A program made the translations under genes and the position numbers. Positions 2,658 through 48,976 of a stretch of 64,000 nucleotides of DNA are shown piece by piece. The notes below the pieces were generated by a model. It searched no databases. It saw nothing but the letters and a program-made list of their open reading frames with translations, and was not told the origin of the DNA. Each line of letters starts with the position of its first letter. Positions within the stretch are counted from its first letter, which is position 1. Source of the stretch: Bacteroidota bacterium (GTDB taxonomy: Bacteria > Bacteroidota > Bacteroidia > SXHM01); contig CANKAM010000007.1 in assembly GCA_947479755.1 (NCBI GenBank), forward strand, positions 1-64,000, in the 5' to 3' direction.

Positions 2658-5600
2658 TTATGCTGATTCTTTAACGTTTCTTACTTTGGTCTGGTAGTAT
2701 ACATTCGGCTGTGTACCTACTTCTTCAAGAAGGTTGTAGCTTCTGTCATCTTTAGAAAGTTTGCGCACCTCTGATGTTACATCACTCAGGTCGCCAAAAA
2801 CAATTGCGTGTGTTGGACAAGCCGTAGCGCAGGCGGTTTGAATATCTCCATCTTTCACTTTTCTGCCTTCTTTTTTAGCAGTCAGTTTTCCTGCCTGAAT
2901 TTGCTGAACGCAAAGCGAACATTTTTCCATAACCCCTCTTGAACGTACTACTACATCAGGGTTCAGAACCATTTTGCCCAAGTCATCATTCATGTTGAAA
3001 TCAAACTGCTCGTTGTCTGAATATTTAAACCAGTTAAATCTTCTTACTTTATAAGGACAGTTGTTTGCGCAGTAACGTGTTCCGATGCAACGGTTGTAAG
3101 CCATCATGTTCAGACCTTCAAGACTGTGTGTAGTTGCTGCAACAGGGCAAACTGTTTCGCAAGGTGCGTGGTTGCAATGCTGACACATTAACGGCTGGAA
3201 CAGAACAGAAGGATTTTCTGAAGCCGCTTCCATCTCTGTGAATTTGTCAATTGCATTCAAGCCTTCTGCATCTGCAACTTCTTGATTCATATCGCTGCTG
3301 TAATAGCGGTCAATACGCAACCAGTGCATTTCGCGGCTTCTGCGTACTTCATCTTTTCCTACAACGGCAACGTTATTTTCTGAGGTGCAACTTGTAACAC
3401 AAGCTCCGCAACCAATGCACGAATTCAGGTCAATACTCAAGCCCCACAAATGTCCTGTTTCAAGATCATGGTCGCGCCACAGGTTAATATCTTTAACGGG
3501 TTGTTTGCCGTGGTTGGTAGTTTGTAATTTTAACTGAGGATTTCCTGATTTAGGATCTTTCAGGTATTCAGAAAATGTTGTTTCTTTTACAATCGCCTCT
3601 CTGCCCATCAAGGTGTGGTGGGTTTGAGTAGCGGCAATCTGATATTTTTCGCCTGTACCTTTTACGGTTACATCGTAAGCAGTATATGTTGCGTTTCCAT
3701 CAACAACAGAAACAAACTGGTATGCATTTGCTCCGATACCGTCAGCAGTTTTTCCTGCTGCTGTTCTTCCGTAACCTAAAGCCAGACCAACAGTTCCGTA
3801 TTTCTGGCCGGGCTGCGGGAATGCAGGTGCTTTTATTGATACTCCGTTTACCGTAACTTCAACTACATCGGCATTGTCATCACCTCTTTCCAAACGGCTA
3901 AGATTAAGTTCCGCCATTTGTTTTGGTGACATGGTAACATAGTTATCCCAGGTTACTTTTGAAATTGGATCAGGCAACTCTTGCAACCAAGGGTTGTTTG
4001 CCTGAGAACCATCTCCTAAACCAGTTTTAATATAAACCTGTAATTCAGTTGCTCCTGCGGTTACTCCTTTTCTGACTGCGGCAGCAGCTGAAGAAATATC
4101 AGTTGCCGGAGCAGCAGGTGTTTCTTTTGTTGCAGCAACTGCAGCAGGTTTAACCGGTTCAGCAGCTACCTGTGCAACAGGAACTGAATAAAAACCATCG
4201 TGCAGACTTACTTCCCATGAAGCGCCTGTTGTAGTTTGCCAGTTAGCTTTTAAATAATCGTGATAAGAAGTTTCAATTCCTGCCCAAACCAATAAACTCT
4301 CTTGTGCCTGACGTGTGCTGAATAAAGGAGAAATAGTAGGTTGACCTAAACTGTATTGTCCTTTTTTAGGATTTGCATCGTTCCATGATTCCAGATAATG
4401 GTTATCAGGACAAACGTAATCTACCAATGAAGCTGTTTCGTCTTCGCGGTCAGCAAAAGATATTTTCAATTTTACTTTTTCAAGTGCTGAAACAAATTTC
4501 TCACCGTAAGTATATGCCGGATTTACACCATATAATATAACTGCATCAACTGAACCGCTTGCCATTTCAGCAACCAGGGCAGCTACTTTAGCATCGTCAC
4601 CTTGTTTCAGATAAACAGGAGTTGCAGTATCAATCGTGTTTCCGTAGTTGCCTAATAATTCATTGATAGCATTTACTACCACCTGAACATTGGTGTCGTT
4701 GCTTCCGCAAATAACCAGACTTCCTTTTGCAGCTAACAATTCAGCAGCAGCTGTCTGTAATTTATCTTTGTATTCATCAGCAATACCTGCATCATAAGTA
4801 GCAGCGCCTTTTGCTTTTGCTATAATATTATAGAGTGCTAAAACAGCTAATCCCTGCTCAGAAGGTTTTATTGCAACACGCACATCTGCGTTTGAACCGG
4901 TAACCGAAAGGGTGGTTTCAAACTGGAAGTGGCGTGACATTTTTCCGTTTTTCGGATTTCTTGTTTGTCCGTATTGTCCTGCATATTCAACAGAAGCAAG
5001 CCAGTTAACCAAGAAGTCAGCACCAAAGCTTACAGTTACTTCAGCATTTTCAAAATGATAATCAGGAATAATTGCCGAACCAAAATTTGCTTGGTTCGCT
5101 TTCAGAATTCCTGAGTAAGAAACAGCATCGTAAGTAACCTGTTCGGTGCCGGGATATTTTGCTGTAAAGTCAGCAATTGCTTTTTTAGTGGTAGGACTGA
5201 TGATAGAATTGCTCAGAATTCTGATTTTCCCGCCCTTTGCAGCAATAGCTTCTAATTGTGATTTTATGTCTTTATCAACTTCGCTCCAGGTTGCAGCAGC
5301 TTTTTTAGCCAACGGATTTTTCAGCCTTGTTGAATCATATAAAGAAAGAACCGATGAATTGATACGTGCATTAACCGCTCCTTTAGTAACAGGTGAAAGT
5401 TTGTTTCCTTCAATTTTGATAGGACGACCTTCACGTGTTTTTACCAGAATGCTTGCGTAATCATTACCATCAGCAAAGGTAGATGCATACCAATTGGCAA
5501 TACCCGGAGTAATTTCCTCAGGTTTGTTCAGGTATGGGATAGCTTTGTTTACGGGTGTTTCGCAGGCTGCAATGGTTGCGGCCGTAACACCGAATCCAAG

Positions 5601-5765
5601 AAATTTCAGGAAATCCCTGCGGTTGGTTGAAGAATCGGCAAGTGCATCGTTGCCAAGAAACTCTACATTCGTTTGCTCAGGAAATTCGTTTTCAGCGGAT
5701 TTTCTGAACTCGGGAGTGTTTTCAAGTTCCTCTATTCCTTTCCAGTATTTTTTTACTTTGGTCAT
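2658..5765 (-). CDS. actB: ActB, fused molybdopterin-oxidoreductase-like / iron-sulfur subunit of alternative complex III
   Basis: Peripheral periplasmic subunit of ACIII (1035 residues). The N-terminal part resembles a molybdopterin oxidoreductase that in ACIII holds no molybdenum; the C-terminal part is a ferredoxin-like electron wire. A Tat motif NRRDFLKF lies unusually far in (about residue 48) and is followed by a lipobox-like AAC, the layout of the Tat-variant family that ActB defines. Cysteine clusters CIGCGACVTSC (about residue 782), CQHCNHAPCETVC (860), CIGTRYCANNC (890), CSLC (945) and ACATACP (978) fit three 4Fe-4S clusters and one 3Fe-4S cluster. An Ala/Pro-rich linker near residues 530-570 separates two lobes. 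It lies 24 bases after actA. Confidence 0.93.
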   Translation of the reverse strand: MTKVKKYWKGIEELENTPEFRKSAENEFPEQTNVEFLGNDALADSSTNRRDFLKFLGFGVTAATIAACETPVNKAIPYLNKPEEITPGIANWYASTFADGNDYASILVKTREGRPIKIEGNKLSPVTKGAVNARINSSVLSLYDSTRLKNPLAKKAAATWSEVDKDIKSQLEAIAAKGGKIRILSNSIISPTTKKAIADFTAKYPGTEQVTYDAVSYSGILKANQANFGSAIIPDYHFENAEVTVSFGADFLVNWLASVEYAGQYGQTRNPKNGKMSRHFQFETTLSVTGSNADVRVAIKPSEQGLAVLALYNIIAKAKGAATYDAGIADEYKDKLQTAAAELLAAKGSLVICGSNDTNVQVVVNAINELLGNYGNTIDTATPVYLKQGDDAKVAALVAEMASGSVDAVILYGVNPAYTYGEKFVSALEKVKLKISFADREDETASLVDYVCPDNHYLESWNDANPKKGQYSLGQPTISPLFSTRQAQESLLVWAGIETSYHDYLKANWQTTTGASWEVSLHDGFYSVPVAQVAAEPVKPAAVAATKETPAAPATDISSAAAAVRKGVTAGATELQVYIKTGLGDGSQANNPWLQELPDPISKVTWDNYVTMSPKQMAELNLSRLERGDDNADVVEVTVNGVSIKAPAFPQPGQKYGTVGLALGYGRTAAGKTADGIGANAYQFVSVVDGNATYTAYDVTVKGTGEKYQIAATQTHHTLMGREAIVKETTFSEYLKDPKSGNPQLKLQTTNHGKQPVKDINLWRDHDLETGHLWGLSIDLNSCIGCGACVTSCTSENNVAVVGKDEVRRSREMHWLRIDRYYSSDMNQEVADAEGLNAIDKFTEMEAASENPSVLFQPLMCQHCNHAPCETVCPVAATTHSLEGLNMMAYNRCIGTRYCANNCPYKVRRFNWFKYSDNEQFDFNMNDDLGKMVLNPDVVVRSRGVMEKCSLCVQQIQAGKLTAKKEGRKVKDGDIQTACATACPTHAIVFGDLSDVTSEVRKLSKDDRSYNLLEEVGTQPNVYYQTKVRNVKESA

Positions 5766-5789
5766 ATTAATATGGAGCTTATTCTATAA

Positions 5790-7052
5790 TTAGTAATGAC
5801 ATTTTGCGCACTCAAGTCCGCCCATTTTTTCAACGGTTATCTTTTGCCCTTTAAACTTGTCTTTGTAAGTAGCGTGTATGTAATCGTAGTAGCCGTTTCC
5901 GTTTCCTGCGGTTTGCACTTCGGTTGTGCGGTGACATTCTATACACCAAACCATTGTTAATGGTGAATGTTGTTTTGCAACCGTCATAGAGTCGATTGCT
6001 CCGTGGCAAGTTTTACATTCCTGTTTTCCGGCAACGGTGTGTTGGCTGTGATTGAAATAAACGTGATCAGGCAGGTTGTGAACTTTTACCCATTGAATTG
6101 GTTTCTGGTTGCTGCCATATTTTCCGGTGTTCGGATCGTAATCCAAGGCTGCATAGATTTTTGCAATTTCTTTTGTCCCGGTGATTTTACCTTCCTGAAC
6201 TGCTTTGTGGCAGTTCATACAAACGTTGGCTGAAGGGATGCCGGCAACTTTACCTTTTTCAGCGCCTGAGTGACAGTAAACGCAGTTGATTCCGTTTTGT
6301 CCCGCGTGTATCTGGTGAGAGAAAGCAATTGGTTGCTCAGGCTGATATCCTTGATAAACGCCAATGCCCATTAAAGCATCCCATCCGATTTTTGAAATCC
6401 ATAAGAAACCAATGATAACCCCCAAGGCAACTATGCCTTTATTGTGTCCCAGCCAGTATTTTATTTCACCCCAAGTACCCAATTCTACAGGTGCGGGCAA
6501 ACCATCTTTTTCATTTACCAATGTTTGCAGTGAGCGTTTTACTCCTGAAAGAACATTGATTAAGATTAGGAACAGGATGGTAAGACCAAGCAGCACATAT
6601 AACATAGTGTTGCCTTTTGGTGCAGTTGCGGGTTCAGCACCTGGTGCAGTTGCTACCGGTGCAGGCGGTGACGGAGGCCCTGCTTTGATTGTAGCAATAA
6701 TTGCTTTCAGCTCCTCATCAGAAAGATGCGTGAACGATGACATCGCTACTTTTCCGTAATCGTTGAAAATTTTGTTTGCATAAGCATCACCGCTTTTACG
6801 CAACTCTTCGTTGTTCTTAATCCATTTGTAAAGCCACTCTTCAGCAGGTTGCGGAACACGGTCGAAAACACCTTTTAAACCGGGGCCTGTCAGTTTTTTA
6901 TCGTCCAGCTTGTGGCAGGTAGCGCAGTTTTGTTTAAAAAGCTTCTCTCCGTCAACGGCTTTTGCAGTAAAAGAAAATGTTAGAAAAAAGAGGAAAAAGA
7001 GAGGAAAAAATACCTTGGTTAATTTAGTGTGCATCAGGCATTTAACATTCAT
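5790..7052 (-). CDS. actA: ActA, multiheme cytochrome c of alternative complex III with an extra N-terminal cytochrome c domain
   Basis: Electron-transfer subunit of ACIII (420 residues). After a signal peptide there is a mono-heme cytochrome c domain (CATCH at residues 43-47, with Met104 a possible axial ligand), a Pro/Ala linker, two membrane segments (about 149-168 and 206-222), then a pentaheme domain with CXXCH motifs at 257-261, 278-282, 346-350, 370-374 and 415-419. Six heme sites are therefore visible. The start at 7052 is used; an in-frame ATG six codons later (7034) also gives a good signal peptide. First gene of the operon, with a candidate promoter at 7109-7116. Confidence 0.92.
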   Translation of the reverse strand: MNVKCLMHTKLTKVFFPLFFLFFLTFSFTAKAVDGEKLFKQNCATCHKLDDKKLTGPGLKGVFDRVPQPAEEWLYKWIKNNEELRKSGDAYANKIFNDYGKVAMSSFTHLSDEELKAIIATIKAGPPSPPAPVATAPGAEPATAPKGNTMLYVLLGLTILFLILINVLSGVKRSLQTLVNEKDGLPAPVELGTWGEIKYWLGHNKGIVALGVIIGFLWISKIGWDALMGIGVYQGYQPEQPIAFSHQIHAGQNGINCVYCHSGAEKGKVAGIPSANVCMNCHKAVQEGKITGTKEIAKIYAALDYDPNTGKYGSNQKPIQWVKVHNLPDHVYFNHSQHTVAGKQECKTCHGAIDSMTVAKQHSPLTMVWCIECHRTTEVQTAGNGNGYYDYIHATYKDKFKGQKITVEKMGGLECAKCHY

Positions 7053-7298: not shown

Positions 7299-7400
7299 GA
7301 TTGAAAAAGATTTTTTTCTGCAACCCAACCTTTGCCGAAAATCTTACGTGTAGCAGAATGCAGATTGTGTTTTGCCGTTTTTTATACCTTTATTGGTTAA

Positions 7401-7973
7401 ATGAACATTGAACAGGAACTTTTACGGCAGTGTATTAATAAGGAACGCAAGGCGCAGTTTGCTTTGTATAAACAGTTGTATAGTTTTTTAATGAGCATTT
7501 GTTTTAGATATTGCAATAATAAAGAAGATGCCCAAAGCCTCTTAAATCTCGGCTATTTAAAATTGCTGAATAATCTTGAAAAATACAGACAGGAAATTCC
7601 GTTTGGCTTGTGGGCAAGACGACTGATGATCAACACCATTATTGATGAATACCGCAAAAACAAAAAAGAAAAAGAGCTTTTAGAATATCACGATTTTACC
7701 GACCGCAGAGAAGATGAAACACTGGTGGAAATAAACGATGCGGTAAAGCGCATGGATGCACAGGAAATTCAACGCGATATTGACAAGTTGCCGAATGTGA
7801 GTAAAAAAGTATTTAATCTTTTTGTGGTAGATGGTTTCGGACATAAAGAAATAGCCGAAATGTTGGGTATGAGCGAAGGAACCAGCAAATGGCATTTGAA
7901 CAATGCCCGCGAAAAACTGAAAGTAAGAATATTAGGGACAGAGGTAGTTGAAATTAAAAGCAAAACAGCTTAG
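7401..7973 (+). CDS. ECF-type RNA polymerase sigma factor
   Basis: Alternative sigma factor of the extracytoplasmic-function class (190 residues). Sigma region 2 covers about residues 10-90 and includes the -10 recognition stretch WARRLMINTIIDEYRK; region 4 covers about 128-178 with the helix-turn-helix GHKEIAEMLGMSEGTSKWHL. It heads a plus-strand unit: the next gene, 35 bases on, has an anti-sigma-like N-terminus and a membrane span, and two PKD-domain genes follow. It probably directs transcription of these surface genes in response to an envelope signal. The specific ECF group cannot be set from sequence inspection. Confidence 0.9.
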   Translation: MNIEQELLRQCINKERKAQFALYKQLYSFLMSICFRYCNNKEDAQSLLNLGYLKLLNNLEKYRQEIPFGLWARRLMINTIIDEYRKNKKEKELLEYHDFTDRREDETLVEINDAVKRMDAQEIQRDIDKLPNVSKKVFNLFVVDGFGHKEIAEMLGMSEGTSKWHLNNAREKLKVRILGTEVVEIKSKTA

Positions 7974-8008
7974 CGCCTTTTCGCCTTAGCGGTAAAAAAG
8001 AAAACAGC

Positions 8009-9274
8009 ATGAGTAAAGAAAAAGAAACCGAAAACATCATCAACGAAAAGCTCAACAGCCGTGAGTTTGCCTTTGATGAAAAAGCATGGGCGGGTATGGA
8101 AAACCTGCTTGATGCGCAGGAGAAGAAACGCAGAGTTGGGTTTTGGTTGTATTTTTCTGCAAGTATGTTTGTGGTTTTGGTGGCAGGTGCGGCTTGGTTT
8201 TTTATGCCGACAACTGATAAAAAGGGGAAAGAAACAGAGTTGGCAACGGCTGCCAACCAGTCGGCAACGGTTCTCAACTCAACGGCAACGGCTGAAACCC
8301 GGATAGCATCCGTTTCCACCGAGATGGCAACGGCTGACACCCAGATGGCAACCATTTCTACCGAGATGGCAACGGCTGAAACCCAGATGGCAACCATTCC
8401 TACCCAGATGGCAACGGCTGAAACCTTGGTGGCAAACATTTCTACCGAGATGGCAACGGATGAAACCCGGCTGGCAAACATTCCTACCCAGATGGCAACG
8501 GCTGAAACCTTGGTGGTAACCATTTCTACCCAGATGGCAACCACTGAAAATGAACAAGATTCTGCCCAAGCAGCCGAAAAAATGCTTTCAACCGATTCTG
8601 CTTCTTTAGCAGAAACCGCTAAAAACACGCTTACCGCGCCAGGAAAAGAAACCAAAAATGCCTGGGGTGTTATGGCAGGGACGGGGTATTGGTTTCCTTA
8701 CTATTCAACTATAGGAGTAAATGATAATAAGGGTATAATTGGTTTTACAGGCGGTATATATTATCAAAGAGCATTCAGCAAACATATTGAACTTGGAGTA
8801 AGTGCAGTTTATTCAAGCAGAGGAGCACTTAATAATGATAAAACTATTACCAATTCTGAGTTTGGTTTTGGAGTTGAAAACGACAAGACGACAATTTCGC
8901 CTCAAACGCTTCATTATTTAACTATTCCTCTGTATCTGAGATTTAATATCACACAGAGAAGCCATCTTTTAGTTGGAGCTTGTTATTATCGGTTGCTTAC
9001 CACTACTTCCAAAATAACACATACAACCGAAAACAGCTTTGGTGTTCTTGAAAGCAGCACAGAAAAACAAACAGGAGAACATGCGGGCTTCCGCAAAAAT
9101 GATATTGCAGCTTTTATAGGATATGAGTTAACTCTGTTTGATAGAATGAACACAGGATTGCAGTTCAGTTATGGTTTTTATGATATTACCCAAAACAGTT
9201 ACAATAATATTAAAGGAACTGACCGCAACATCTCCCTCCAACTCCAACTCAAATACGATTTAATCCGTCATTGA
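8009..9274 (+). CDS. anti-sigma-like N-terminus, membrane span and 14-residue repeats fused to an outer-membrane beta-barrel
   Basis: Four parts are visible in 421 residues. Residues 1-43 are charged with the pattern FAFDEKAW and LLDAQEKKRR, like the cytoplasmic segment of Bacteroidota sigma-associated barrel proteins. Residues 44-66 form one transmembrane helix. Residues 78-185 are Ala/Thr/Met-rich 14-residue repeats built on MATAET and MATI(S/P)T, encoded by a 42-bp tandem repeat. Residues 218-421 alternate polar and hydrophobic residues with Gly/aromatic-rich strands (GVMAGTGYWFPYY), a PorT-like barrel of about eight strands. Lying 35 bases after the ECF sigma gene, it is likely its membrane partner, possibly linking both membranes. 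Anti-sigma activity is inferred. Confidence 0.75.
   Translation: MSKEKETENIINEKLNSREFAFDEKAWAGMENLLDAQEKKRRVGFWLYFSASMFVVLVAGAAWFFMPTTDKKGKETELATAANQSATVLNSTATAETRIASVSTEMATADTQMATISTEMATAETQMATIPTQMATAETLVANISTEMATDETRLANIPTQMATAETLVVTISTQMATTENEQDSAQAAEKMLSTDSASLAETAKNTLTAPGKETKNAWGVMAGTGYWFPYYSTIGVNDNKGIIGFTGGIYYQRAFSKHIELGVSAVYSSRGALNNDKTITNSEFGFGVENDKTTISPQTLHYLTIPLYLRFNITQRSHLLVGACYYRLLTTTSKITHTTENSFGVLESSTEKQTGEHAGFRKNDIAAFIGYELTLFDRMNTGLQFSYGFYDITQNSYNNIKGTDRNISLQLQLKYDLIRH
8321..8530 (+). repeat. 42-bp tandem repeat inside the sigma-associated gene, five near-identical units
   Basis: Five consecutive 42-base units, each encoding 14 residues, run from 8321 to 8530; a truncated sixth unit follows and two more decayed units precede at about 8232-8320. 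Units alternate in their first codon (GAG or CAG) and in the serine/proline position. Because 42 is a multiple of three, copy-number change would lengthen or shorten the linker without a frameshift. Confidence 0.95.
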
Positions 9275-9278
9275 TTGT

Positions 9279-10442
9279 ATGATAAAACTTTACTCAAAAA
9301 GCCACATAGCCACTAAGCCAAATAGCCAAATAGGATTTGCTACTTGGCTACTTCCCTGCTTGGCTATTTGCCTGTTTGCCTGCAACAAACCCGATGACCC
9401 CGAGCCAACCGATACCACCCCCGTATTTTTCATCAACGGACAATTAGACAATTCGGGTCTTGCTATCAGTGCCGGTGAAAACGGCTATTATATGTATTCG
9501 GATTATTGGTTAGACGCTAACGATGTGTTCACCTTTATGGGAGAGTTTAAGCCAACCGATTGCTTTAGTTGCGCCAATACTCTGAAGGTTATATTCAGCA
9601 ATTACAAAGCCGATGCAGTTCCCTCTTCAGCAATTGATGCAGGAAGTTTTCCTTTAACCTATCTTCCGTTTAGTATTCCGGGCGGAGTGCCGGCCAGTTA
9701 CAGCGTAAAATTTACTCCGCTTACAACGGGTGGTCAGCCTCAAAGCTTTTTATGGGATTTTGGTGATGGCACCACCTCTGCCGAAGGAAGCCCAACACAT
9801 ATTTATGCCAACACGGGCATTTATGAAGTAGGACTAACTGTAACCTACCAGTCGGGATGCAGCAGTAATATCAGCAATCCGCTTAATCTGGGAGTGTCAG
9901 CGCTTTCGTGCGATGCAGGGTTTATTCTTTCCTCAGTGGATGTGAATACCGTAGCGCTTACTTCCAATCCGGGCGGCACAGCACCATGGACCTATGATTG
10001 GGATTTTGGTGACGTTACTCCGCACGACAACAGCGCCAATCCAACTCACACGTTTGCCAACTCCGGAGTTTATCAGGTTTGCCTCACTACGGTGAGTAGC
10101 GACAGTTGCACCAACACCCGCTGCCTTAATGTGGCCACCGAAAATCCGGGCGAATGTTCTATCCGTTATTCAGCCATCACCACTACTATTTCCAATCCTT
10201 TTAACCTTTCAACAGTAGAGGTGCAATGGACCGATGCGGCAGGTGTGGAATACACCTCAAACAATGCAGCACAGCCCATGGCCAGCTATTTTAAAATAAA
10301 CAATGTGGAAGAATATGAAGTAAATGAGAACGGAGATAGAACAAAAAAGTTGAACATCAGTTTAAACTGCACTTTATATAACGGAACCAATTCCATACAA
10401 CTTGAAAATGCGGCAGCTACTATAGCGGTGGCGCATCCATAA
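9279..10442 (+). CDS. PKD-domain lipoprotein
   Basis: Surface or periplasmic lipoprotein of 387 residues. The signal peptide ends in lipobox LFAC (Cys35). Two PKD domains follow, marked by SFLWDFGDGTTS (about residues 162-173) and YDWDFGDVTPHDN (about 240-252), each ending in a VCL- or VGL-containing strand. The C-terminal part (about 290-387) is not recognised. It starts 5 bases after the barrel fusion gene, so it is cotranscribed with the sigma unit. The signal-peptide coding region is made of a palindromic repeat (9317-9372). PKD domains usually mediate protein or carbohydrate contacts; the ligand is unknown. Confidence 0.8.
   Translation: MIKLYSKSHIATKPNSQIGFATWLLPCLAICLFACNKPDDPEPTDTTPVFFINGQLDNSGLAISAGENGYYMYSDYWLDANDVFTFMGEFKPTDCFSCANTLKVIFSNYKADAVPSSAIDAGSFPLTYLPFSIPGGVPASYSVKFTPLTTGGQPQSFLWDFGDGTTSAEGSPTHIYANTGIYEVGLTVTYQSGCSSNISNPLNLGVSALSCDAGFILSSVDVNTVALTSNPGGTAPWTYDWDFGDVTPHDNSANPTHTFANSGVYQVCLTTVSSDSCTNTRCLNVATENPGECSIRYSAITTTISNPFNLSTVEVQWTDAAGVEYTSNNAAQPMASYFKINNVEEYEVNENGDRTKKLNISLNCTLYNGTNSIQLENAAATIAVAHP
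9317..9372. repeat. palindromic repeat encoding the lipoprotein signal peptide
   Basis: Left arm GCCAAATAGCCAA (9317-9329) pairs with right arm TTGGCTATTTGCC (9360-9372) with 12 of 13 matches. The loop holds further TTGGCTA-type words. The same vocabulary occurs in the element at 48030-48147. It lies wholly within the reading frame and encodes residues 14-31 of the lipoprotein precursor. Confidence 0.7.
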
Positions 10443-10501
10443 ATAAAAAAACAAGCCCACCAACCTTTATCAAACAATCAGCGTGTATATCACCGAAACC
10501 C

Positions 10502-10530
10502 AAAATCACTAAATCGTAATTCACCAAATC
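10502..10530. repeat. short direct repeats AATCAC(T/C)AAATC before the PKD gene
   Basis: Degenerate copies of a 10-13 base word (AAATCACTAAATC, then TTCACCAAATC) occur in the 98-base gap between the PKD lipoprotein and the large PKD gene. No promoter or terminator is obvious here, so cotranscription through the gap is likely. Confidence 0.4.
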
Positions 10531-10540
10531 ATAAATAAAA

Positions 10541-13504
10541 ATGAAACAATTAATCTCTACCCTCACACTAATCTTTGCAGCAGCAATTTCAAGCTTTGCC
10601 TGCGTAGGTGAATTTACCTACACCGTTGAAAACAACGTTGTGGTTTTTCATGGAATATCAGATACCCCTGGCGTAACTTATCATTGGAACTTTGGCGACC
10701 AAAGCGATGCCAATGGCGAAAATGTAACGCATACTTATTCGGTTTATCCAGAGCATTACAATGTATGTCTTACTATTTCAGACGGACTTGGCTGCACCGA
10801 TGAATATTGCGCAAGCGTTTATGTACAAACAGGACCCGGCACAAACTGCGAAGGTTCGTTTACCTATGTTGTTGAAGGCGCCACCGTTGCTTTTGAAGGA
10901 CACTCAAGCTATTCCGAAGTTTCGTACTACTGGTTTTTTGGTGATGGTTCCAGCCCTGCAACCGGACAAGGTCAAACACATACCTATGAGCTTTATCCCG
11001 AACATTACGAAGTGTGTATGATTGTAGTAAACGGCAACGTTGGCTGTCAGGACACCGTTTGCCAAACCATTTATGTTGAAGGACCGCCAAACCCTGCCGA
11101 TTGCGAAGGTTCATTCACCTATACCGTTAGCAATAACACAGTAACATTTGCCGGAAGTTCAACCTATGGTGATGTTGATTACCACTGGATTTTTGGTGAC
11201 GGAAGCGATGCAAACGGACAAAACCTTTCACACACCTATACTACTTATCCTGAACATTATGATGCATGTCTTGTAATTCACAACACAACTGTTGGTTGTA
11301 TAGATACGGTATGTCAGAATATTTATGTTGAAGGTACCCCGTCTGCCTGTGAAGCAAACATTACGTATACCATTACCGGCACCGAAGTTCATTTTCATGG
11401 AGAATCAACCGTTCCCGAAGTAACCTATCACTGGAACTTTGGCGACCAAAGCGATGCCAATGGCGAGAACGTGGTGCATAACTACGAACTTTCACCCGAA
11501 CATTATGTAGTATGTTTAACCATTCACAACAGCAGCGGTTGCGAAGCCTACGTTTGTGATACCATCTTTATTGAAAGCACTACACCTGAAGAATGTCACG
11601 CATCTTTCACTTACACCATCAGTGGAAACGAGGTGCATTTTGATGGTGCATCTAACGTTCCCGGTGTTTATTACTACTGGCATTTTGGTGACGGAACAAC
11701 AGGCGGAGGTGAAAACCCTGTACATAATTACACACTTTCACCCGAGCATTACAATGTTTGCCTGACTATCTATAATAACGATGGCTGCGAGAACACGTAT
11801 TGCCATACTGTTTTTGTAGAAGGCAACGAAAACAACAGCGACTGCGAAGCTTTATTCACCTTTGTTCAGGACGGAAATATTGCAGTATTCCATGGAAGCT
11901 CATCAGTTCCGGGAGTTGATTATAGCTGGAGTTTTGGTGATGGTACTGAAGGCGCAGGTGAAAATGTAACGCACACGTTTACATCGTTCCCTGAACATTA
12001 TACCGTTTGTTTAACCATTCACAACAGCAACGGATGCGAAAGCCATTCATGTCAGGTCATTTATGTACAAAGCAGCGGTGGCGGTGGTGATGAGTGCGAA
12101 GCATCATTCACCTATACCGTTGTTGACAATGCCATACACTTCATGGGTCATTCAAACCAAAATGGTGTAAGCTACAGTTGGATATTTGGCGACAACTCAA
12201 CCGGACAAGGACAAGATCCTTGGCATACATACACGTTGTTTCCTGAACATTATAATGTGTGCCTGATTATCAATAACAATAACAACGGTTGCAGCGATAC
12301 CGTTTGTCAGACAGTATATGTACAGCACGGAAGCGGAAGTACATGTAACTCAGAATTCACTTACACTATTACAGGTAATGAGGTTCACTTTAACGGGCCA
12401 TCTAACGCAGACGGAACACATTATCAGTGGAGTTTTGGCGATGGTCATGCAAGTGATAACCACAATCCTAACCATGCTTATACTTTGTTTCCTGAGCATT
12501 ATGAAGTGTGCTTAACCGTTACCAACACCGCTAACGGTTGCAGCGAAGAATCATGTCAGACCATTTTTATTCAGCAAGGAAACAGTCCCGACCATTATGA
12601 ACTTTCAGGCACCATTTATACAGGACAAGACTATGCCGATGAAGGATATGTAATGCTTATTCATTTTGATGCAAGCACAGGATCATTAGTGCTTGACCAA
12701 ACAATAGGTATTGGTGCAAATGGGCATTATTCTTTTCTTGCCAGCCCGGGTAACTATTTCGTGAAAGCAGCATTATCGCCTGGTTCTGCACACTACGCGA
12801 ATTTCTTGCCTACTTATTTTGAGCACGAATTGTTCTGGTACAATGCTGATGTAATCAGCCATACTGTAGCTGGAAGCTTCAATCGTAATATCCACATGAT
12901 TGAGGGTAACAACCCTGGCGGCCCCGGCTTTATTGGTGGATTGGTTACAGAAGGTGCCAACAAAACCGAAGGTCCGGGTGATGTTGTAGAAGGTGTTCAG
13001 GTTATGTTACTCAACATGAATGACGAGCCGTTGCAATACACTTACAGCAATGCTTTTGGCGAGTTCTCATTCAGCAATGTGGCTTACGGAACCTATCAGG
13101 TGTATGGCGAAGTGTACAACCTCACTACTGTTCCTGCTATCGTAACCATTGACGGTTCAAACATGAACATCACTGATATTGGTTTGCTTATCACTTCAAG
13201 AGAGGTAACTACCGGTGTTAATGAGGTTGCAGTGCTTAACGAAACTTCGGTTGGTAATGTATTCCCAAATCCGTTTAAAGGAGATGCGGCTATCAATATC
13301 AGCCTGCAGAAAGATGCACGTTTAAGCATTCGCATAGTTGATATTGCAGGAAGACAAGTGTATGCCACCATCATGAACTTTGGTTCAGGTGTTCAGCAAA
13401 TTAACCTGCCTGTATCAGAATTAAGTGCGGGAATTTATAACCTCATACTTGCAGATGAGAAAACAAATTCAGCAGTAACACGCAAATTAGTTAAAACAGA
13501 ATAA
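10541..13504 (+). CDS. secreted protein with eight Cys-rich PKD repeats and a T9SS type A sorting domain
   Basis: Large exported surface protein (987 residues). A signal peptide (residues 1-20) is followed by eight PKD repeats of about 80-85 residues beginning near Cys21, Cys103, Cys188, Cys270, Cys352, Cys435, Cys519 and Cys602. Each has the core (W/F)xFGD, the signature PEHY followed two residues on by C, and three more cysteines, suggesting two disulfides per repeat. Residues about 690-890 form one or two carboxypeptidase-regulatory-like beta domains (ELSGTIYTG; GEFSFSNVAYGTYQVYG). The C-terminus, from about residue 905 (VFPNPFKGDAAINISL), is a T9SS type A sorting domain. It probably acts as an adhesin or matrix protein; the ligand is unknown. 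Last gene of the sigma unit. Confidence 0.88.
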   Translation: MKQLISTLTLIFAAAISSFACVGEFTYTVENNVVVFHGISDTPGVTYHWNFGDQSDANGENVTHTYSVYPEHYNVCLTISDGLGCTDEYCASVYVQTGPGTNCEGSFTYVVEGATVAFEGHSSYSEVSYYWFFGDGSSPATGQGQTHTYELYPEHYEVCMIVVNGNVGCQDTVCQTIYVEGPPNPADCEGSFTYTVSNNTVTFAGSSTYGDVDYHWIFGDGSDANGQNLSHTYTTYPEHYDACLVIHNTTVGCIDTVCQNIYVEGTPSACEANITYTITGTEVHFHGESTVPEVTYHWNFGDQSDANGENVVHNYELSPEHYVVCLTIHNSSGCEAYVCDTIFIESTTPEECHASFTYTISGNEVHFDGASNVPGVYYYWHFGDGTTGGGENPVHNYTLSPEHYNVCLTIYNNDGCENTYCHTVFVEGNENNSDCEALFTFVQDGNIAVFHGSSSVPGVDYSWSFGDGTEGAGENVTHTFTSFPEHYTVCLTIHNSNGCESHSCQVIYVQSSGGGGDECEASFTYTVVDNAIHFMGHSNQNGVSYSWIFGDNSTGQGQDPWHTYTLFPEHYNVCLIINNNNNGCSDTVCQTVYVQHGSGSTCNSEFTYTITGNEVHFNGPSNADGTHYQWSFGDGHASDNHNPNHAYTLFPEHYEVCLTVTNTANGCSEESCQTIFIQQGNSPDHYELSGTIYTGQDYADEGYVMLIHFDASTGSLVLDQTIGIGANGHYSFLASPGNYFVKAALSPGSAHYANFLPTYFEHELFWYNADVISHTVAGSFNRNIHMIEGNNPGGPGFIGGLVTEGANKTEGPGDVVEGVQVMLLNMNDEPLQYTYSNAFGEFSFSNVAYGTYQVYGEVYNLTTVPAIVTIDGSNMNITDIGLLITSREVTTGVNEVAVLNETSVGNVFPNPFKGDAAINISLQKDARLSIRIVDIAGRQVYATIMNFGSGVQQINLPVSELSAGIYNLILADEKTNSAVTRKLVKTE

Positions 13505-13526: not shown

Positions 13527-13565
13527 ACCCCTGCCGTTTGGACTAAAACTTCGGCAGGGGTTTTT
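13527..13565 (+). terminator. intrinsic terminator after the PKD gene
   Basis: Perfect 10-base stem ACCCCTGCCG / CGGCAGGGGT with a 15-base loop, followed by TTTTTGC. It lies 23 bases after the PKD stop codon and closes the sigma/PKD transcription unit. Confidence 0.85.
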
Positions 13566-34852: not shown

Positions 34853-35037
34853 CTAACAGAGGATACACTAAAGCTAACAAAGAGTACTGTAATGCTTACA
34901 ATGAATACACTAATGTAAACAGAAAGTACATTAATGCTATTGGAGCGTACAGTTAAGTTAACAAAGAGTACACTGATGTAAATAGTGAGCACACTAAAGT
35001 AAACAGAGAGTACAGTAATGTAAACAGAGGATACATA
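34853..35037. repeat. 21-bp tandem repeat array, eight units plus a partial ninth
   Basis: Units begin at 34853, 34874, 34895, 34916, 34937, 34958, 34979, 35000 and 35021. The approximate consensus is (C/T)TAACAGAGAGTACACTAATG (drawn one base short); the core GTACA(C/G)T recurs at the same place in nearly every unit. The 21-base period is two helical turns, so all cores face the same side. Both strands carry stop codons in the most open frames. It lies between a terminator and the start of an 81-residue gene (35059). Confidence 0.93.
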
Positions 35038-35058
35038 AAAACAGAACTAAACCACGCC

Positions 35059-48622: not shown

Positions 48623-48976
48623 TCTTATTGCCCCTAAATAGCCTCTGAATTATAGTAGTTTCTATACATTCTAACCTCCATCCGCTGTAAAAAACAGTCT
48701 CTCATAATGTGCTAATTTATAGTTTTTTATAATAAACTTCGCTTTAACACATTAGGAGGTGTTCCCCAGCATCCATTTTGCAGCCTATATTTATACTAAA
48801 GTTTAGTTTATTAAAATAAATTAAGTATTAAAATATACTAAATCATAATTTAGTGTAAAATAATTAATAGCAGAAGATACTAAATTTAAGTTTAATATAA
48901 AAATACTTATATTAGCAGTCTTGTAAATCGTGTTTTGTATTCAAAATTCAATTTTTAGCACCTAAAATCTAAAAAA
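48623..48976. other. AT-rich intergenic region with palindromes
   Basis: A 354-base gap, strongly AT-rich from 48780 on. Two palindromes share the word ACTAAA: ACTAAAGTTTAGT (48795-48807) and ACTAAATCATAATTTAGT (48837-48854); a further TACTAAATTTAAG follows near 48883. These may be operator sites for the following gene or simple AT-richness. No ORF or RNA gene could be supported. Confidence 0.5.

Follow-up and report, generated by a model that had tools for sequence, protein, structure and literature searches.

Anti-sigma proteins that reach from the cytoplasm to the outer membrane in a single chain have already been published for Bacteroides under the name Dma (dual membrane-spanning anti-sigma). 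They combine an N-terminal sigma-binding part, a membrane helix, a long disordered tether and a C-terminal barrel, and their genes lie beside ECF21 sigma genes, ECF standing for extracytoplasmic function (PMC13088901). Here we describe a Dma-like unit of four genes in a stretch of 64,000 nucleotides (the window; contig CANKAM010000007.1, positions 1 to 64,000, assembly GCA_947479755.1) from a member of the Bacteroidota (lineage SXHM01), where an ECF sigma gene is followed by genes for a predicted envelope-spanning protein of 421 aa, a predicted surface lipoprotein and a large PKD protein with a sorting tail of the type IX secretion system (T9SS). We consider it probable that the unit works as a sigma/anti-sigma switch, in which the 421-aa protein would hold the sigma factor while spanning the envelope through its disordered tether, and the freed sigma factor would transcribe its own operon and T9SS surface genes from the promoter-like site CCAACC-N16-CGTGTA.

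The resemblance to Dma1 and Dma2 (described with Das1 and Das2 in Bacteroides thetaiotaomicron) extends to the sigma-binding N-terminus (presumed here), the single helix, the disordered tether, the beta-barrel, and an adjacent ECF sigma gene with a further operon gene (PMC13088901). Loss of those anti-sigma proteins induces their own operon, and the published outputs are vesicle formation and polysaccharide loci (PMC13088901), whereas here they would be predicted T9SS-exported surface proteins. Unlike Dma1 and Dma2, as far as the accessible part of that source describes them, the present unit has a defined promoter-like site that it shares with T9SS cargo, a PKD lipoprotein as conserved third gene, and a tether made of tandem heptad repeats that differ among orthologs. 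The sequence-only reading of this locus had proposed the one-chain, dual-membrane arrangement; the arrangement is supported by prediction and comparison, but it is not a new kind, having been published as Dma (PMC13088901) and, in a similar pair, in PMC9308784. In the accessible text of PMC8999054, ECF21 is not mentioned and the term matched longer group numbers only. A literature search combining dual membrane-spanning anti-sigma proteins with T9SS and PKD domains yielded a single paper, on TamL. "Dma-like" refers here to the described architecture only.

In TonB-dependent cell-surface signalling (FecA/FecR/FecI) the ECF sigma factor answers to a signal at the outer membrane by way of an anti-sigma factor in the inner membrane. 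There, barrel and anti-sigma factor are separate proteins, whereas here one chain is predicted to hold both, with a small OmpA-like barrel. A closer parallel comes from Phocaeicola vulgatus (M0N98_03761/03760), in which the anti-sigma protein, encoded downstream of its sigma gene, is also predicted to span the periplasm and to end in an outer-membrane barrel (PMC9308784). Expression of that sigma gene rises in response to an antibacterial toxin, probably via envelope stress, and loss of the anti-sigma protein leads to longer O-antigen and protection from the toxin; neither T9SS cargo nor a repeat tether is mentioned in the accessible part of the source (PMC9308784). The same paper calls EcfO of Bacteroides fragilis (cited in PMC9308784 and PMC13088901) and its anti-sigma protein a similar pair, which the citing paper describes as responsive to oxidative stress.

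Predicted architecture of the encoded proteins

The first product of the unit (Table 1) matches Sigma70_r2 at residues 22-89 and Sigma70_r4_2 at 121-173, with neither region 1 nor region 3 among its Pfam matches, and judging from these profiles it is an ECF sigma factor with regions 2 and 4 only. In the AlphaFold2 model of the 421-aa product, N-terminal helices (residues 4-65) are followed by the tether (69-212) and by an OmpA-like barrel (217-420). The helix at 24-65 includes, behind KKRR, a hydrophobic stretch; by eye there is no sign of a signal peptide, and a single transmembrane helix after a cytoplasmic N-terminus is predicted. The tether has a predicted local distance difference test (pLDDT) score below 50 throughout and no secondary structure, as a long intrinsically disordered segment would, and the C-terminal part is modelled as an outer-membrane beta-barrel, on which ground a soluble C-terminal domain is rejected. 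This succession (sigma gene, then a protein with cytoplasmic-like N-terminus, helix, repeats and barrel) had been proposed from the letters of the DNA and is confirmed by Pfam, Tandem Repeats Finder (TRF) and AlphaFold2, while the idea of a single polypeptide extending from the cytoplasm into the outer membrane gains support from the predicted structure and from comparison. Matches of Surf_Exclu_PgrA, MscS_porin and SMC on the tether fell far under their cut-offs and were taken as composition matches.

The lipoprotein carries, in a lipobox-like context, a cysteine (Cys35) that is invariant in all 24 aligned sequences (the window copy and 23 relatives). Its AlphaFold2 model has a mean pLDDT of 83, matches to solved structures cover essentially the second PKD domain only (208-289), and a profile search with alignment A2 gained only four further relatives. 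The 987-aa protein scores 249.9 bits with PKD_4, and its end passes both Por_Secre_tail PF18962 (41.5 bits, cut-off 27) and TIGR04183 (31 bits, cut-off 23), by which profiles it carries a C-terminal T9SS sorting tail. Both had been read as PKD surface proteins, which holds for their domains, but they are not alike, one being a lipoprotein and the other a T9SS protein. The terminator expected behind them is present as a hairpin with a T run, which the hairpin scan did not list because its loop is longer than the scan allows.

Conservation of the unit and its promoter-like sites

We followed the unit in a genus set of seven genomes (the window's own genome included) and in a class set of 20 loci beyond the genus, 27 loci together, the class stretches being taken around 20 of the class-level matches of the barrel protein. 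Such matches (E <= 1e-4) were found in 42 of 149 genomes, a tally that includes the own genome, the six genus relatives and some weak tether-only matches. Judging by six close relatives with named records, which come from metagenome-assembled genomes under the titles Chitinophaga pinensis (three), Bacteroidetes bacterium (one) and Bacteroidia bacterium (two), the barrel protein appears to sit in the Bacteroidota, as expected of the Dma family. The order sigma gene, barrel protein, lipoprotein and T9SS PKD protein is kept in 7/7 genus genomes, the fourth product having 6-11 PKD motifs in complete copies (the copy in L138 is interrupted by a contig end). Downstream of the unit, five of the six sufficiently long genus stretches share a small gene and a pyruvate kinase gene (by eye), and L137 has a different gene there.

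Beyond the genus, the sigma gene precedes the barrel-protein gene in all 20 loci (27/27 overall), and the lipoprotein gene follows in 17 (24/27 overall), being absent there in L147 (where the contig ends soon after), L149 and L156. A neighbour matching the C-terminal profile of the fourth gene adjoins the sigma or lipoprotein gene in five class loci (L143, L148, L150, L151 and L157), and in five further ones (L153, L154, L158, L159 and L160) a match to the PKD-bearing-lipoprotein profile comes directly after the lipoprotein gene. Beside the first unit of L148 there is a second divergent pair of sigma and barrel-protein genes on the opposite strand (8641-12444, genome G079; E 4e-37 and 5e-20), accompanied by a protein weakly like the fourth gene product (E 7e-10), perhaps a local duplication of the module.

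The promoter-like site was noticed by reading the DNA upstream of the sigma genes. Exact matches to CCAACC-N16-CGTGTA number two in the 3.9 Mb of the own genome, both in the unit (7325 and 10460), and with one mismatch allowed the window would be expected to hold 0.16 matches, against the two found, both exact. We also counted spacers in the 400 bp upstream of the 27 sigma genes and of 19 T9SS or next genes (assigned by us) of the 27 loci, where CCAACC-N16-CGT occurs 32 times, versus three times for the 24 other spacers (6-30) combined, and three times in the remaining 683 kb of the same loci (both strands counted). At least one strict site is present in 22/27 loci (7/7 in the genus, 15/20 in the class); the site upstream of the T9SS PKD gene recurs in all seven genus genomes, and in L143 and L148, where the operon is led by the T9SS gene, the site stands upstream of that gene. 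The earlier suggestion that the sigma factor controls the PKD adhesin is thus supported by promoter-like sites upstream of both genes.

A relaxed pattern (CCAACC-N16-CGTDTA) gave 24 sites in the seven genus genomes, against seven for the backwards control, 12 of them in the unit and 12 elsewhere. Nine of the outside sites stand 9-70 bp upstream of a long open reading frame (ORF), two fall within ORFs and one has no ORF behind it. All nine ORFs encode proteins with a T9SS tail above the NCBIfam cut-offs, seven of type A and two of type B, the latter barely so (35.6 and 35.9 against 35; one of the two, for which a Pfam scan was run as well, passes CHU_C), and all nine start with a signal-peptide-like stretch (by eye). 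They form five distinct families, several of which are represented by orthologs from two or three genomes. One is a lectin-PKD protein, another shows weak beta-propeller repeats, and a third is a serine hydrolase of the PF00144 fold that also has a PKD-like domain; the remaining two are an M23 peptidase and a protein resembling BNR/sortilin (the Pfam scan behind these assignments covered six of the nine). The sites fit the PKD genes as an output of the sigma factor, as first proposed, and the predicted regulon reaches beyond this pair. The lectin-PKD T9SS protein (L201 2573-5989, contig C4 of the own genome), with relatives in L206 and L221 (the latter by eye), shares the promoter-like site across two lineages (three genomes) and, on this sequence evidence, is the most conserved of the predicted regulon's distant members.

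Outside the genus, CCAACC-N16-CGTGTW was searched in 12 class genomes and gave 21 sites versus ten for the backwards control, ten of them in the unit. The 11 others comprise five, all in G051, that lie 40-160 bp upstream of exported-looking ORFs (by eye; one precedes a relative of the lectin-PKD protein and four precede other exported-looking proteins), five without an ORF of at least 80 aa within 400 bp, and one inside an ORF. By these site counts, the wider regulon replicates in G051 and not generally outside the genus. Also in G051 (L217, contig C56), a gene for a membrane protein resembling the PorP/SprF type (by eye) lies 55 bp behind a CCAACC-N16-CGTGTA site.

The repeat tether and 21-bp arrays

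An alignment of the window protein with 19 genus-level relatives shows both ends of the protein conserved, as well as some 30 residues immediately before the barrel (around DSASLAETAKNPLTAPGKE), with the intervening repeats unalignable except among the closest relatives. The units vary widely (MATAETQ, SGTQSEV, NTTVSDQ, LEKSNTA, VATIPNE and TEGTPAM), yet heptad periodicity (z of at least 3.7 at lag 7) is seen in 18/20 genus tethers, P0017 and P0018 lacking it, and the best repeat lag is a multiple of seven in 18/20. None of 24 tethers from outside the genus reaches the genus heptad score, the highest z being 3.0 (L031); in L030 the strongest lag is 21 (p 0.004), and its z at lag 7 is 1.3. The tether set contains near-duplicates (P0001 and the window; P0006, P0007 and P0008; P0002 and P0004; P0017 and P0018), and P0008 equals P0006 plus 42 residues, or six heptads, both being from assemblies so that an assembly effect is possible.

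TRF reports 7.4 copies in the window repeat with 82% matches and 0% indels, and 54 of the 56 residues repeated at lag 14 share their codon, where 30.4 would be expected. Codon sharing exceeds expectation less strongly in G003, G004 and G005, and in G002 the excess at lag 7 nearly vanishes (12/25 versus 11.3 expected). The tether repeats have thus mostly been copied as DNA, the signal being weak in G002.

Weak tether matches elsewhere in the own genome fall in arrays that repeat every 21 or 42 bp, mostly outside clear genes. Among noncoding arrays, defined as those with no open frame extending 100 codons beyond the array, the period is divisible by 21 in 14/20 of the own genome, 12/16 of G003 and 2/7 of seven outgroup genomes; the corresponding coding counts are 2/14, 5/9 and 1/2. 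The samples comprised 804 kb of the own genome (the window included, three stretches chosen for known matches excluded), 400 kb of G003 and 800 kb of outgroups. Besides the two noncoding arrays of the window (Table 1), further ones with such periods occur in samples L037-L076 and L161-L180, with unrelated unit sequences. No common motif or palindrome was found in 40 array consensus units, which include coding arrays and stretches chosen for known matches, five exceeding shuffles at p<0.05, and a literature search on such 21-bp arrays in Bacteroidota found nothing. Since the genus is rich in unrelated noncoding 21-bp arrays, the same DNA-level process probably wrote the tether; on the simplest account of these sequences, the tether would be a place where a 21-bp repeat process common to the genus acted on coding DNA. 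Such a process would act within a segment where any disordered sequence of adequate length may suffice and, 21 bp being seven codons, units could be gained or lost without frameshift, shifting the tether length in seven-residue steps.

Tethers measure 105-187 residues in the genus and 126-321 outside it, 105 being the minimum of the 44 measured. For 105-187 residues, a standard polymer estimate puts the contour length near 38-67 nm and the relaxed distance between the ends near 8-12 nm. The periplasm is some 20 nm wide, so to span it the tether would have to extend to roughly double its relaxed size, far under its contour, which makes a tension model possible, not demonstrated. It is a tentative proposal, to which we give rather less than even weight, that a sequence-blind, genome-wide 21-bp process rewrites the tether with unrelated heptads while its ends are kept, so that repeat number might serve as a fast-evolving dial on tension and on the set point of the switch.

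Some further observations concern the DNA around these repeats. At the start of the lipoprotein gene (9295-9382, before and within the signal peptide) there are 8-bp repeats such as CAAATAGC, and the lipoprotein relatives in L012 and L013 have additional N-terminal residues at the same junction, for which reason repeats seem to invade this junction too. A 233-aa open frame lies antisense across the repeats of the barrel-protein gene (7954-8655, minus strand), in the same place in L008 as well, and is probably a shadow of the repeat. Upstream of the unit, the genes at 2658-7052 (minus strand) look by eye like those of an alternative complex III (a molybdopterin/4Fe-4S protein and a multihaem cytochrome c protein).

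Table 1. Coordinates of the Dma-like unit and of related features in the window.
Feature	Position	Strand	Basis
Promoter-like CCAACC-N16-CGTGTA upstream of sigma gene	7325..7352	+	exact match
ECF-type sigma factor, 190 aa	7401..7973	+	Sigma70_r2 and Sigma70_r4_2 above Pfam cut-offs; TIGR02937 above cut-off
Predicted envelope-spanning Dma-like anti-sigma protein, 421 aa	8009..9274	+	
Tandem repeat encoding most of the tether; 42-bp unit (14 aa) of 21-bp/7-aa subunits	8241..8549	+	TRF
Predicted surface lipoprotein, two PKD domains, 387 aa; conserved third gene	9279..10442	+	PKD above Pfam cut-off
Promoter-like CCAACC-N16-CGTGTA upstream of T9SS PKD gene	10460..10487	+	exact match
Large PKD protein, 8 PKD stretches, T9SS type A sorting tail, 987 aa	10541..13504	+	
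Terminator-like hairpin and T run at the end of the unit	13527..13565	+	read directly from sequence
Noncoding tandem arrays with 21-bp-multiple periods	34855-35039, 48793-48902		

How the switch may work

In the switch that we propose, the N-terminus of the 421-aa protein would hold the sigma factor in the cytoplasm, a binding that we infer from the Dma precedent in Bacteroides. The chain would cross the inner membrane once and reach, via the disordered tether, its OmpA-like barrel in the outer membrane, perhaps bound there to the co-encoded PKD lipoprotein, its most plausible surface partner. Disturbance of the barrel or of this partner, through lost barrel contact or strain on the tether, may then free the sigma factor, which would use the promoter-like sites to transcribe its own operon and the T9SS-exported surface proteins. 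Gene order, repeats, the conserved sites with their spacing, T9SS tails and conservation of the lipoprotein are observed, and the barrel, the disorder and the single helix are predicted.

Several points weigh against this account. The Pfam barrel match of the 421-aa protein, a putative anti-sigma factor, is slightly below its cut-off; the 65 N-terminal residues of the protein, conserved among relatives, match no anti-sigma family in Pfam or NCBIfam and are modelled with moderate confidence only. Once one mismatch is allowed, the 13 sites of the own genome barely outnumber the 12 of the backwards pattern, which marks the weaker sites as background, and the spacer count is partly circular because the motif was first seen in loci that were later counted, which does not apply to the genome-wide matches. 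Five of the 20 class loci have no strict site (L141, L151, L153, L154 and L158; a one-letter variant is present in L141 and L158), the second unit site of G051 is followed after 238 bp by a kinase-like gene (by eye) and not by T9SS cargo, and 11 of the 12 class genomes searched showed no wider set of sites upstream of exported proteins. T9SS tails are themselves common in the own genome, where all 150 scored of 310 candidates exceed the type A cut-off, and the check for such tails covered only the genes behind forward-motif sites; at perhaps 5-9% of genes by our own estimate, five T9SS families of five would be an unlikely outcome of chance.

Other ECF factors of the own genome, which has 12 Sigma70_r2 matches, could use the same promoter, and the sigma and PKD genes might be adjacent by chance, CCAACC-N16-CGT belonging to another ECF factor in control of T9SS cargo. 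A precedent is Flavobacterium psychrophilum, in which a CGT box at -10 is found in promoters of T9SS genes and of an ECF/anti-sigma pair, with overlapping regulons suggested (PMC9723704). We nevertheless regard this explanation as quite unlikely, given that in most loci the site precedes the sigma gene itself, or the T9SS gene that leads the operon, as autoregulation would predict.

Two other explanations concern the tether. Many anti-sigma factors act through cleavage, and the 421-aa protein might be cut within the tether, its inner-membrane half controlling the sigma factor and the barrel acting separately, with the tether a mere spacer or protease bait. Its predicted disorder makes protease access plausible, and a cleavage site could lie in the residues before the barrel, which in the genus are conserved, unlike the repeats; the two halves, however, stay in a single reading frame in 27/27 loci, and no measured tether falls below 105 residues despite the replaced repeat sequence, which leaves this explanation unlikely. 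The multiple-of-seven lags, together with at least one hydrophobic residue per heptad in the window units, could alternatively reflect selection at the protein level for a coiled-coil rod setting the intermembrane distance. This is very unlikely, and as the leading explanation it is rejected in view of the AlphaFold2 prediction (no helix, pLDDT <50 across 69-212), the Gly-, Pro-, Thr- and Asn-rich heptads of relatives (SGTQSEV, TEGTPAM, NTTVSDQ) and the codons mostly copied along with the residues (weakly in G002). The heptad score of the genus, which 0/24 tethers outside it reach, and the unrelated noncoding 21-bp arrays of the genome also speak against it.

Dma-type switches are known from gut Bacteroides, and the Dma-like units described here extend to many genomes of the class, where a conserved lipoprotein accompanies them. 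The unit offers a testable regulon of predicted T9SS surface proteins, together with a natural series of tether lengths for the question of length and tension. The 21-bp arrays are a separate genome feature able to rewrite a protein segment with the frame unchanged and, if repeat number does act as a dial, its setting would tune the set point of the switch for T9SS surface proteins.

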